A stretch of 64,000 bases of DNA from Halobaculum sp. MBLA0143 (lineage in GTDB: Archaea > Halobacteriota > Halobacteria > Halobacteriales > Haloferacaceae). This document shows positions 46,021 through 52,760 of the stretch, one piece after another. The notes under the pieces are model-generated. The model was not told the origin of the DNA, did not search any database, and saw nothing but the letters and a program-made list of their open reading frames with translations. The translations under genes and the position numbers were made by a program. The stretch is from positions 1,860,001-1,924,000 of the forward strand of contig NZ_JBGKAC010000001.1 of assembly GCF_041361465.1 (NCBI RefSeq), in the 5' to 3' direction. Each line of letters opens with the position of its first letter. Position 1 is the first letter of the stretch.

Positions 46021-46677
46021 TCACTCTCGGTGTCGCCGGTCGAAGCGATCGGCCGGCAAGAGGAGGTCCTCCAGTTCCGGGACGTGTTTCACGTTGAACA
46101 CGACCCGCAGCTCCGCGGAGACGGGCGTAGAGATACACGACAGCCGGAACCCACGCCCGCCGAGGTCGTCGTCCAGAATGTGGTCGTCGGGCGTCGCCAG
46201 TTCGCCCTCGTACACGAGGACGGCGCAGTTGGCACACGCGCCGCCGCGGCAGGCGAACGGCCACGCGAAGCCGCGTTCCTCGGCCGCCTCCAGTAACGTC
46301 TCGTCCGGCTGAGCGAGGAACCGGCCGTAGGCGTGGTCCGACAGGTCCGCCGCGGCCGCCCGGTCGAACAGCTCCGGGTCGGACAGCGACCAGTCGTGGT
46401 CGACGGCCGCCTCGTAGTCCAGGTACTCCACGCGGGTGCCGACGTCCGGCGGCGGTGTCGTCGGTTCTTCGCTCGGCGCTGTCTCGGCGTCGCCGTCCCC
46501 GTCGCTCGGCTCGTAGCCAGCCTGGATCCGTTCGTAGGCCGTCCGCACCCGTTGGAACTCGCGGGCGGACCCGCCCTGGTCCGGGTGGGTCTCGATCACC
46601 CGACGCCGGTACGCGCGGTCGACGGCCGCGTCGTCGGCGTCCGGCTCGACGCCCAGCACCTCGAACGGTGAATCCAC
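46021..46677 (-). CDS. J-domain/2Fe-2S ferredoxin fusion
   Basis: A 218-residue fusion. The N-terminal J domain (residues 1-60) contains DSPFEVLGVEPDADDAAVDR, the HPD motif in ETHPDQGG and FQRVRTAYERIQAGYE. The C-terminal half is a plant-type ferredoxin: the cluster Cys run FACRGGACANCAVLVYEGEL with the fourth Cys in FRLSCIS. An acidic linker joins them. Haloarchaea are known to have such large ferredoxins. It probably carries electrons to oxidoreductases; the J domain may recruit DnaK. The GTG start is 46677. Confidence 0.9.
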   Translation of the reverse strand: MDSPFEVLGVEPDADDAAVDRAYRRRVIETHPDQGGSAREFQRVRTAYERIQAGYEPSDGDGDAETAPSEEPTTPPPDVGTRVEYLDYEAAVDHDWSLSDPELFDRAAAADLSDHAYGRFLAQPDETLLEAAEERGFAWPFACRGGACANCAVLVYEGELATPDDHILDDDLGGRGFRLSCISTPVSAELRVVFNVKHVPELEDLLLPADRFDRRHRE

Positions 46678-49343: not shown

Positions 49344-50078
49344 TCACACGGAGACGGCGTGTTGCCGGAACTTGATCACGACCGCGATCAGCGAGGCGGT
49401 CCCGAGGAGGAGGAACGTCGCCCCGAGACTGTCGAGGACGGCCGTCTCCGGCGACACCAACAGGAGCGCCGTCGAGACGGCGGCCGCAGACACGAACACG
49501 AGCGTGAGCAGGACGTGTCTGACGAGTGTGTCCACGAGTGTCCCCTGGGTGGCGGTGCCGCGCAAGTGCTCGCGGAAGAAGTACCCGCCGTAGACGACGA
49601 TTCCCGGCGCCAACAGGATCGTGAGCGCGGCCGACAGCGACGGGCCGATCACCAACGGCGGCAGCCCGACGCCGAGGATACCGACGACGATCCCCACCTC
49701 CGCGCCGCGTCTGGTGGGGTAGTCGCCGAACCGTTCCAGCTCCGTGTTGGAGAAGACGGCGTTGTACTGCGCCTCCCGCATAGAGAGGGCACACCCGAAC
49801 GCGTAGCCGAGCAACAGCGTCGGGACGAGCGCGGCGACGGCCGTCGGTGGCGCCGACAACGACACCCGGCCGGCGCCGACGGCGCCGACGAGTAGACCCG
49901 CGAGCCCGACGAACGTGTAGTAGCCCCACAGTGACGACTGGGACTCCGGGGCTGCGCCGGCGATGCGGCGGGCGACGAACGCCATCCACGCCGACAGGAC
50001 GGCCAACAGGACGAAGCCGACGAACCAGATCAACTCCGTCCCGGCGGCGGTGCCGACGAGGGGGGCTGTCGGCGTCAC
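49344..50078 (-). CDS. Polytopic membrane protein coupled to the pseudokinase
   Basis: A 244-residue protein with about seven membrane helices: LIWFVGFVLLAVLSAWMAFV, YYTFVGLAGLLVGAVGAGRV, PTAVAALVPTLLLGYAFGCA, GAEVGIVVGILGVGLPPLVI, LSAALTILLAPGIVVYGGYF, LVRHVLLTLVFVSAAAVSTA and LGATFLLLGTASLIAVVIKF. No catalytic motif is obvious. I do not recognise the family. Its GTG overlaps the stop of the pseudokinase gene (GTGA at 50075-50078), so the two are translated together. Confidence 0.8.
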   Translation of the reverse strand: MTPTAPLVGTAAGTELIWFVGFVLLAVLSAWMAFVARRIAGAAPESQSSLWGYYTFVGLAGLLVGAVGAGRVSLSAPPTAVAALVPTLLLGYAFGCALSMREAQYNAVFSNTELERFGDYPTRRGAEVGIVVGILGVGLPPLVIGPSLSAALTILLAPGIVVYGGYFFREHLRGTATQGTLVDTLVRHVLLTLVFVSAAAVSTALLLVSPETAVLDSLGATFLLLGTASLIAVVIKFRQHAVSV

Positions 50079-51718
50079 TCCGACTCCTCCACGAGGCCGC
50101 GCAGTTCCTGGCCGAGTCTGGTCGCCGACTCGTAGCGCCACGGCTTCTCCGTCGCCGTCGCGGTCTGGACGATCTGATCCAACTCCGTCGGGAGGTTCGA
50201 CACCGTCATCGTCGGGTCCGGGACGTCGACGGGGACGAACCCTCCGTCCAAGTCGCGGGGGTACGGCGGCGCGTCGCCCGTGAGCATGGTGTAGAGGGTG
50301 GCGCCCAGTCCGTACACGTCGGAGAGTCGGCCGACGGAGCCGTACTCCTCGGACATCGCCTCCGGCGGAGCGTACCGCTCGTCGATCCGGAGCGTCCGCG
50401 GTCCGCCGAGGTTGGCGGCGACTCCGACCCGAGTCAGCTTCGGGACGTACGCGGCCGCGGTCTGGACGATTCCGATCGACCACGGGGAGACGGCGCCGTG
50501 GGCGGTGCCGCCCTGGTGCATCGTGGCGACGGCGTCACACAGCTCGATCGCCGTCTCGACGGCCGTCACCGGCGGGAGCCGGCCGGCCTCCCACAGCGGC
50601 CGGGGGAGGTAGTCTGTCGTGACCCACGGGTGCGGTGACCGACCGTAGTCGTGGACGGCGGCGACGTTCTCCAGCCCGTCGACGGCCGTCCAGTCGTCGA
50701 TCGCCGGCTGGAAGTCGCGCTGGAAGTCCTTGGTCGCGTACCGTCCTTCGGGGACGTACGTGTGAATGTTGAACTTGGTGTACTCGTTGTCGACGGTGCC
50801 GGCCGCGACGTACACCCGTTCGTAGTGCGAGAGACCGACGATCTCGATGGAGCTGACGGCCTGGAGCACGCTGGAGTCGGGGGTGAACGTGTTCGACTGC
50901 TCGCCGACGACGCGGTCCTCGACAGTGGGGTATGTGATGTACGGCCCCCAGAGCGTCCCGTCGAGCTGTTCTTCCGGCGGGGCGAGCGTCACGTCGACCC
51001 GGCCGGTGTCGGCGGTCGTCACGTCGTGGTAGTAGTCGAGCATGTCGACCAGGAACTCCGTCTCTCGAGAGTCGTGCTGTTGCGCCCGGGCGGCGAGGTG
51101 GTCGACGTTCGTCGGGTGGTGGTCCGCGACGAGCGCGACCGCCCACATCGCCGTGAGTCTGACGTGCCGACGGTCGTGGGCCAACAGCCGCAGCAACGAG
51201 GGGGTCCGCTGGGGTGCCTTCCACATCTCCTCGACGACCGTCTTGACGACCTCTCGCGCCTCCGGCGCGAGTTGGAGCGGCGCTTCGGACACGCGGGCGT
51301 CACGCCGGGGCTCGTCGGTCGGCTCCTCTCTGGCACCGGGGACGCCCGCGGCCACGTCCGCCGGAGTGGCCTCCAACGCGTCGTCGACCGGGTCGGGGCG
51401 CACGTCCTCCGGTCCGACCGCGTTGGTCGTCGCCGGGCCGGGCTCGTCGGGGGCGAGCCGTTCGCTGTCGGTCAACACGTCGACGACGAACTGGGCCTCG
51501 ACTGCCGCCCGGGACTTCGCCTGTGCGACCACGCCGTCTGCGGTCTCCGGACGGAACTCCGTCACGACGACCAACGCCCACATCGCGGTGAGTCTGACGG
51601 CTCTGTCCGGGTGGTCCAACGCCTCCACGACGACCGGGAGGTTCTCGACAGTTCCGTCGATGTCCGTGGCCACCTTCGTCGCGATTCGTCCGACAGTCGT
51701 GCGGTGCGGCGCAGCCAT
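50075..51718 (-). CDS. HEAT-repeat protein kinase-like protein (pseudokinase)
   Basis: A 547-residue protein. The N-terminal 230 residues hold two homologous HEAT-like units (AVRLTAMWALVVVTEFRPET and HVRLTAMWAVALVADHHPTN) that are internal duplicates, joined by an acidic linker. The C-terminal half (from about residue 285) has a kinase-like fold: APPEAMSEEYGSVGRLSDVY then GLGATLYTMLTGDAPPYP is the subdomain VIII-IX region. The catalytic loop reads HGAVSPWSIGI, lacking both the Asp and Lys of H-R-D-x-K, and the DFG region is TRVGVA. So it is probably a catalytically dead kinase that binds partners. It is translationally coupled to a membrane protein. Confidence 0.85.
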   Translation of the reverse strand: MAAPHRTTVGRIATKVATDIDGTVENLPVVVEALDHPDRAVRLTAMWALVVVTEFRPETADGVVAQAKSRAAVEAQFVVDVLTDSERLAPDEPGPATTNAVGPEDVRPDPVDDALEATPADVAAGVPGAREEPTDEPRRDARVSEAPLQLAPEAREVVKTVVEEMWKAPQRTPSLLRLLAHDRRHVRLTAMWAVALVADHHPTNVDHLAARAQQHDSRETEFLVDMLDYYHDVTTADTGRVDVTLAPPEEQLDGTLWGPYITYPTVEDRVVGEQSNTFTPDSSVLQAVSSIEIVGLSHYERVYVAAGTVDNEYTKFNIHTYVPEGRYATKDFQRDFQPAIDDWTAVDGLENVAAVHDYGRSPHPWVTTDYLPRPLWEAGRLPPVTAVETAIELCDAVATMHQGGTAHGAVSPWSIGIVQTAAAYVPKLTRVGVAANLGGPRTLRIDERYAPPEAMSEEYGSVGRLSDVYGLGATLYTMLTGDAPPYPRDLDGGFVPVDVPDPTMTVSNLPTELDQIVQTATATEKPWRYESATRLGQELRGLVEESE

Positions 51719-51833
51719 CTGTCACCCCCCTCGAACACGGTGCCACCCGGGCAGTGTCCGTCGGTACGATTGGCTACCGGTGCCGACCACTTAAATTGCG
51801 GTACGAACCGTCTCTCGAAGCGGTGGAACCGCG

Positions 51834-52625
51834 TTACTCCGGCGGCGCTGCCGGAGTGACGCCGGCGTACCGGTCCGTCTCGGCCACCCCAGAGTGTGGC
51901 GGCGGCAACAACACCTCTCCGTCGGGGTTGGCCGTCCGCCACGCTCCCCACGTCGACAGCGTCGACGGTCGGATCGACAGCCGGGTCCCCGTCTCCGGGC
52001 CACAGATCCCCGTGGCGAGGAGCTGGCTCCAGTAGCTCTGGGTCGTGGTGTCGAGCAGGACGAGGTTGCCGCTGGCACGCACGTCCACCTGCCGGCCCCC
52101 GGTGCGTTCGGCACCGAACGCCCGTCCGTCCCGTTGGGCGGCCGCGACCTGGATCCGCTCGGGCCGCCACAACAGCCCGGTGACGAGGAACGTGCTCGCC
52201 CGGCCGTCGATCCGCCGGTCGGCGACGACGCCGCTGCGACAGATCGGACAGAAGCTGACGAGCACCGGGCCACCGAACCGGTCACAGACCGCCTCGTGTT
52301 CCGCCAGGAGCTCCAACGGGTACGCCCGGGCACGGTCGCCGTCGCGGAGCCCGACGACGGTCTGTTCCGGGTCGATCCCGCCGACAGCCCCGGTCGCGGG
52401 GGCGTAGCGGTCGGGGATCTCGTGGGCGGTCCAGTCCGGCGCGAACGCCGGCTCGACGACCGCGTGAATGCCCGGGTCGGCGGCGACCGGCTCCGAGCAG
52501 ATCGTCGTCGGGACACCCTGGGCCGCGAGCCCACTCGGCGTCCGTGTGGGGGTGCCGGTCGCCTCGCGGCCGGCACAGCCGGCGGTCACGGCCGCGAGCG
52601 CGGCGAGGAGTCGGCGGCGGTTCAC
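51834..52625 (-). CDS. DUF3179 family lipoprotein
   Basis: A 263-residue DUF3179 protein. The N-terminus is a lipoprotein leader (NRRRLLAALAAVTAGCAG) with Cys17 as lipid anchor. Family motifs: EPAFAPDWTAHEIPDRYAPA, VVGLRDGDRARAYPLELLAE, and VLVSFCPICRSGVVADRRID (C-P-I-C). The two cysteines suggest a metal or redox site; the family function is unknown. I chose the GTG at 52625. It is divergent from the glucoamylase gene. Confidence 0.9.
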   Translation of the reverse strand: MNRRRLLAALAAVTAGCAGREATGTPTRTPSGLAAQGVPTTICSEPVAADPGIHAVVEPAFAPDWTAHEIPDRYAPATGAVGGIDPEQTVVGLRDGDRARAYPLELLAEHEAVCDRFGGPVLVSFCPICRSGVVADRRIDGRASTFLVTGLLWRPERIQVAAAQRDGRAFGAERTGGRQVDVRASGNLVLLDTTTQSYWSQLLATGICGPETGTRLSIRPSTLSTWGAWRTANPDGEVLLPPPHSGVAETDRYAGVTPAAPPE

Positions 52626-52760
52626 GACCCGGGGTCCGTCGGCGACGCGCCTGAACTGCTCGCGGTCGTGCGCGGGGTGAGCGACACCGCGGTCGGAACC
52701 CCGTGGCGCCGCAACAACGGTGACTCGTAATTCGGTACGAGAACCGAACACCACGAGAGA

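Follow-up and report, generated by a model that had tools for sequence, protein, structure and literature searches.

Membrane-linked pseudokinases are already known among the prokaryotes, and the gene pair described here, which encodes a HEAT-repeat pseudokinase and a seven-helix protein, is a variant of them. The EssB (YukC) protein of type VIIb secretion is a prokaryotic pseudokinase that serves as a membrane scaffold, and the MviN pseudokinase, of the ActPs3 family, is coupled to a membrane protein and also has a scaffold role (PMC12599244). In the PknG-GlnX-GlnH system of Actinobacteria, a soluble, TPR-bearing protein with a kinase fold is tied functionally to a separate transmembrane protein (PMC9769921, PMC8546545).

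The pair lies within a window of 64,000 nucleotides (the whole stretch of DNA that was analysed) from the haloarchaeon Halobaculum sp. MBLA0143, and its features are collected in Table 1. Whereas EssB possesses a single helix of its own and belongs to a secretion system, in the haloarchaeal system the membrane part is supplied by a seven-helix protein with its own gene, and secretion genes do not recur near the pair loci. In MviN the pseudokinase forms one domain of the membrane protein itself and is a phosphorylation target of PknB; the haloarchaeal system, in contrast, consists of two genes, with a different membrane protein and with HEAT repeats, in a host where no other PF00069 kinase was found. 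PknG, unlike the haloarchaeal protein, is an active kinase, and GlnX differs from the seven-helix protein; no gene for a solute-binding protein recurs at the pair loci. With the Hanks-type Ser/Thr kinases PknB and Stk1 (PF00069) the pseudokinase shares the complete two-lobe fold predicted for it (Z 26-27, about 250 residues aligned), the APE motif, the subdomain IX Asp and the C-lobe Arg, but it has lost the catalytic Asp and Lys, mostly also the Asn, the beta-3 Lys and the glycine loop, and it lacks a transmembrane helix of its own and carries HEAT repeats at its N-terminus. The membrane protein, for its part, is like rhodopsin and GPCR bundles in its predicted seven helices and N-out/C-in topology and in a GPCR-like arrangement, but differs from rhodopsins and from HisKA_7TM in having no sequence relation to them, no conserved retinal Lys in helix 7 and no attached kinase domain. 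We know of no system in which a HEAT-pseudokinase is combined with a separate seven-helix protein.

Table 1. Features of the pseudokinase and membrane protein genes, in window coordinates
Feature	Coordinates	Strand	Basis and remarks
HEAT-repeat pseudokinase gene	50075..51718	(-)	547 aa + stop; open reading frame, HEAT and Pkinase matches, kinase fold
HEAT block 1, residues 8-87	51458..51697	(-)	Pfam HEAT at 27-54; model helices 8-87
HEAT block 2, residues 152-235	51014..51265	(-)	Pfam HEAT_EZ at 169-195; model helices 152-235
Pseudokinase domain, about residues 272-547	50078..50905	(-)	Structural alignment to Stk1/PknB over residues 271-547
Degenerate catalytic loop HGAVSPWSIGI (residues 407-417), replacing HRDLKPxN	50468..50500	(-)	Sequence
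Putative TATA-like box (archaeal), AATTTAAG	51790..51797	(-)	72 nt 5' of the pseudokinase ATG; read from the sequence
Seven-helix membrane protein gene	49344..50078	(-)	244 aa + stop; GTG start inside the pseudokinase stop
Putative Shine-Dalgarno-like GGAGGAG	50084..50090	(-)	5 nt before the membrane protein GTG; read from the sequence

The coordinates and reading frames that a sequence-only reading had assigned to the two genes proved exact, including the GTGA at positions 50078-50075, in which the GTG start of the membrane protein gene overlaps the TGA stop of the pseudokinase gene. This overlap and the GGAGGAG that precedes it fit translational coupling, and a 4-nt stop/start overlap is also used in several lineages. 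A scan for bacterial promoters and terminators gave no more than chance would, which is unsurprising in an archaeon. Directly 5' of the pseudokinase gene, and on the same strand, lies a gene for a DUF3179 protein with a lipobox-like start (51834-52754, minus strand); neither this gene nor the ABC transporter and amylase/glucodextranase-type genes that also surround the pair are conserved at other loci. Elsewhere in the window, a J-domain is fused to a 2Fe-2S ferredoxin domain (DnaJ and Fer2) in a single protein of 218 residues (46021-46677, minus strand).

The predicted structure of the window pseudokinase contains a complete two-lobe kinase fold, the nearest match of which is Stk1/PknB (Z 27.3, 2.6 A over 253 residues); at the level of Pfam profiles, a Pkinase (PF00069) match over residues 379-484 reaches 28.3 bits, just below the cut-off of 31.7, and a HEAT_EZ (PF13513) match reaches 28.8 bits, above the cut-off of 27. 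The earlier claim that the C-lobe is kept was borne out and can be widened to both lobes, the N-lobe also folding in the model; Glu 453 of the APE motif, the subdomain IX Asp 467 and the C-lobe Arg 528 are invariant. Likewise, the two duplicated HEAT units that had been described are present in the window protein, where the blocks are homologous to each other (VRLTAMWALVVV at residues 42-53 and VRLTAMWAVALV near residues 186-197) and are joined by a long linker modelled with low confidence, but this split and duplicated layout is peculiar to the window genus, and relatives carry a single HEAT block. A HEAT_2 match is given by 28 of 47 relatives.

In the active site of the window protein, HRDLKPxN has become HGAVSPWS, DFG has become RVG (within TRVGV), and the beta-3 Lys position is occupied by His319. 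The loss of the catalytic Asp and Lys and of the DFG Asp, all claimed from the sequence alone, therefore stands. That the catalytic residues might lie at shifted positions was checked in 48 paired proteins, none of which has either the catalytic Asp (0/48) or the catalytic Lys (0/48); the Asp position is held by Gly in 32, Ala in 14, Ser in one and Thr in one, mostly as HG[GA]. Of the remaining active-site residues, the Asn of the catalytic loop is kept in six of the 48 and the DFG Asp in 22, while the beta-3 (VAIK) position is Arg in 34 of 47 paired proteins, Lys in one, and His in the window genus. Judged by its sequence, the window protein is a non-catalytic pseudokinase, predicted to be unable to move phosphate by the usual mechanism. 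Some members of the family may still bind nucleotide, given the DFG Asp that 22 of them retain. Unusual transfer by a kinase fold has a precedent in the AMPylation carried out by SelO, and a rival explanation would accordingly have the domain bind nucleotide or perform such a transfer, in which case it would not be a pure pseudoenzyme; the DFG-type Asp and Asn residues that persist, and the completeness of the fold, accord with this explanation, but no acidic or Lys residue is invariant at the active site, all 48 paired proteins are without the catalytic Asp and Lys, and in the window protein the DFG Asp and the beta-3 Lys are gone as well, all of which makes it improbable.

Kinases of the intact type also occur in the order, and HxDxKPxN is kept in all eight of the unpaired examples aligned, which come from four loci; a few pseudokinases of the HG type are found without an adjoining membrane gene. 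Two tryptophans (W343 and W365) were considered as marks of the pseudokinases and rejected, as the intact-type unpaired kinases carry both; the Trp residues common to the two groups suggest a shared ancestry in a common haloarchaeal kinase stock. At three loci (L126, L127 and L128) three kinase-like genes are clustered; HxDxKPxN is intact in L127 and L128, and all three genes of L126 are degenerate. In the host genome itself, which is 97% complete, the pseudokinase is the only PF00069 match, so that its action through an activated canonical partner kinase is unlikely, insofar as such a partner would belong to the PF00069 family.

The membrane protein was found in 58 of 243 genomes in an initial search, and at the loci fetched thereafter a kinase-like gene lay just 5' of the membrane gene with very rare exceptions. 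Profile searches across 392 genomes of the order then placed the membrane protein in 86 (E<=1e-30) and the pseudokinase in 100 (E<=1e-60), and in 82 of those 86 a kinase-like gene lies immediately 5' of the membrane gene on the same strand (kinase coordinates for genomes G168 and G054 being taken from separate look-ups), so that the pair does recur in many haloarchaea, as had been anticipated. The gap between the profile matches is at most 60 nt in 54 of 83 adjacent places, with a median of 25 nt. In the other four genomes the partner is separated or broken: the two genes are 3.5 kb apart on opposite strands in G150, 92 kb apart on one contig in G020, and at separate loci in G185, and a broken pseudokinase copy lies directly 5' of the membrane gene in G193. 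In this last genome the kinase reading frame is split and the membrane reading frame carries an internal TAG, and in G197 both partners are represented by short reading frames; such joint decay is as expected if the partners are lost together. About 16 genomes match the kinase profile only, and the three inspected (G005, G062 and G125) all have intact catalytic loops. Distance matrices of the two partner proteins correlate strongly over 47 pairs (r=0.95, a value reached in none of 2000 permutations), part of which comes from shared species history.

When 295 genomes from the whole phylum were searched, only those of the host's order gave matches. Within it, adjacency is held across five haloarchaeal families at about 20-30% protein identity, and no third gene is clearly conserved at the pair loci, where one other reading-frame family recurs in 13 loci from four families. 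In Halorussus the pair resides on plasmids 300-340 kb in size, where the annotation gives no more than a HEAT repeat protein for the one and a hypothetical protein for the other; a tblastn search of plasmids with the membrane protein gave no match at the threshold used. A reading frame of about 80 codons lies between the Halorussus pair genes on the opposite strand (L130:8876-9115 and L131:8780-9019). Residence on large plasmids and the patchy distribution (86 of 392 genomes) would be expected if unrelated genes had travelled together, by chance or by block transfer, with no common function. Such hitch-hiking is nevertheless very improbable, in view of adjacency that persists at such low identity without a clearly conserved third gene, the presence of the partner even where the genes are separated, and the joint decay. 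A role in anti-phage defence was also considered and rejected: the PADLOC matches (PD-T4-6, MkoA and MAD6) reflect generic kinase similarity, and the membrane protein has none.

The membrane protein is predicted to form seven long helices (pLDDT 91.1), and its loop charges place the N-terminus outside and the C-terminus inside. It matches no known family at useful E-values in Pfam or NCBIfam, and gives no convincing match to an enzyme or transporter in Pfam, NCBIfam or, by sequence, the PDB. In structure it comes closest, with few exceptions, to GPCR or rhodopsin-like bundles, the top match scoring Z 16.0 (4.1 A, 216 residues aligned), and Foldseek returned a best E of 7e-3 and nothing below 1e-3; because such scores among helical bundles may reflect only a common arrangement, no kinship is claimed. 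Identity as a microbial rhodopsin (PF01036) was rejected, with an hhalign probability of 0.4% and the conserved retinal Lys absent from helix 7, where Lys occurs at position 236, near the cytoplasmic end and alternating with Arg, and elsewhere sporadically; identity as HisKA_7TM (PF16927) was likewise rejected (hhalign 0.9%).

Conservation of the membrane protein is concentrated in its predicted cytoplasmic half (2.20 vs 1.30 bits in the outer half, p=9e-11), and centres on a cluster comprising W51, Y53, R101, E102, Y163, D183, R187, H188 and Q239, in which the D183 position is Asp or Glu in 50 of 50 aligned proteins. A distant sister family of seven-helix proteins (hhalign 98.9%, E 1.6e-17) is present in further genomes of the order, and in seven of its genomes tested that lack the true pair the pseudokinase profile was absent from six and gave a weak match in the seventh. 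At the sister loci L134, L136-L139 and L142 no pseudokinase lies nearby, and the genes adjoin a multicopper oxidase-like or trypsin-like gene, neighbours that offer no functional lead. The W, R101, GT, RH and Q positions are common to the sister family and D183 is missing from it; since that family has other positions of the cluster and no pseudokinase nearby, D183 is a candidate for a pair-specific contact. Much of the cluster recurs in the sister family, and the positions other than D183 may for that reason serve an activity of the membrane protein itself rather than docking.

That sharing, together with the strong conservation of polar and charged residues within the cytoplasmic half of the helices, is what would be expected if the seven-helix protein were an enzyme, channel or transporter, with the cluster as its active or gating site and the HEAT-pseudokinase as a regulatory or assembly subunit. 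The pseudokinase domain of Mycobacterium tuberculosis MviN, which regulates cell-wall synthesis, provides a precedent (PMC12599244). This explanation is possible but unlikely, as Pfam, NCBIfam and the PDB hold no convincing sequence match of the kind it calls for, and the best folds are receptor and rhodopsin bundles, which prove nothing on function.

The coupling and joint inheritance of the two genes, the conservation of a kinase fold that has lost its catalytic residues, and the conserved cytoplasmic face of the membrane protein together speak for a scaffold or switch at the membrane. The two proteins probably constitute an obligate module, with the seven-helix protein holding the non-catalytic HEAT-pseudokinase scaffold and perhaps switching it. 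In such a module: (i) the seven-helix protein would reside in the cell membrane, the N-terminus on the outside and both the C-terminus and the conserved face on the cytoplasmic side, and would anchor the HEAT-pseudokinase at the inner membrane surface; (ii) the pseudokinase, folded but transferring no phosphate by the usual mechanism, would serve as a scaffold or as a conformational switch, and the HEAT repeats would form an arm for binding further partners; and (iii) the membrane protein would position the pseudokinase, and may alter its state upon a stimulus. Physical contact, a receptor role, the direction of signalling and a downstream client are steps that we infer, co-occurrence of the pair being no proof of contact. 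A bolder form of the proposal, in which an archaeal seven-helix receptor would signal through a non-catalytic HEAT-pseudokinase in place of a G protein or histidine kinase, as a phosphorylation-free receptor-adaptor, is speculative and rather doubtful.

The recurrence of the pair and the loss of catalytic residues in every pair examined support the suggestion, made from the sequence alone, of a membrane-associated module not described before, putatively a scaffold or a signalling unit. No description of the pair was found in the open-access papers searched; accounts of archaeal pseudokinases are scarce, and the same literature yielded no case of one with its own membrane partner. A pair that is co-inherited in five haloarchaeal families, with catalysis lost throughout and in a host that has no other recognisable PF00069 kinase, would, if the proposal is true, mean that a kinase fold is used in these archaea purely as a membrane scaffold.
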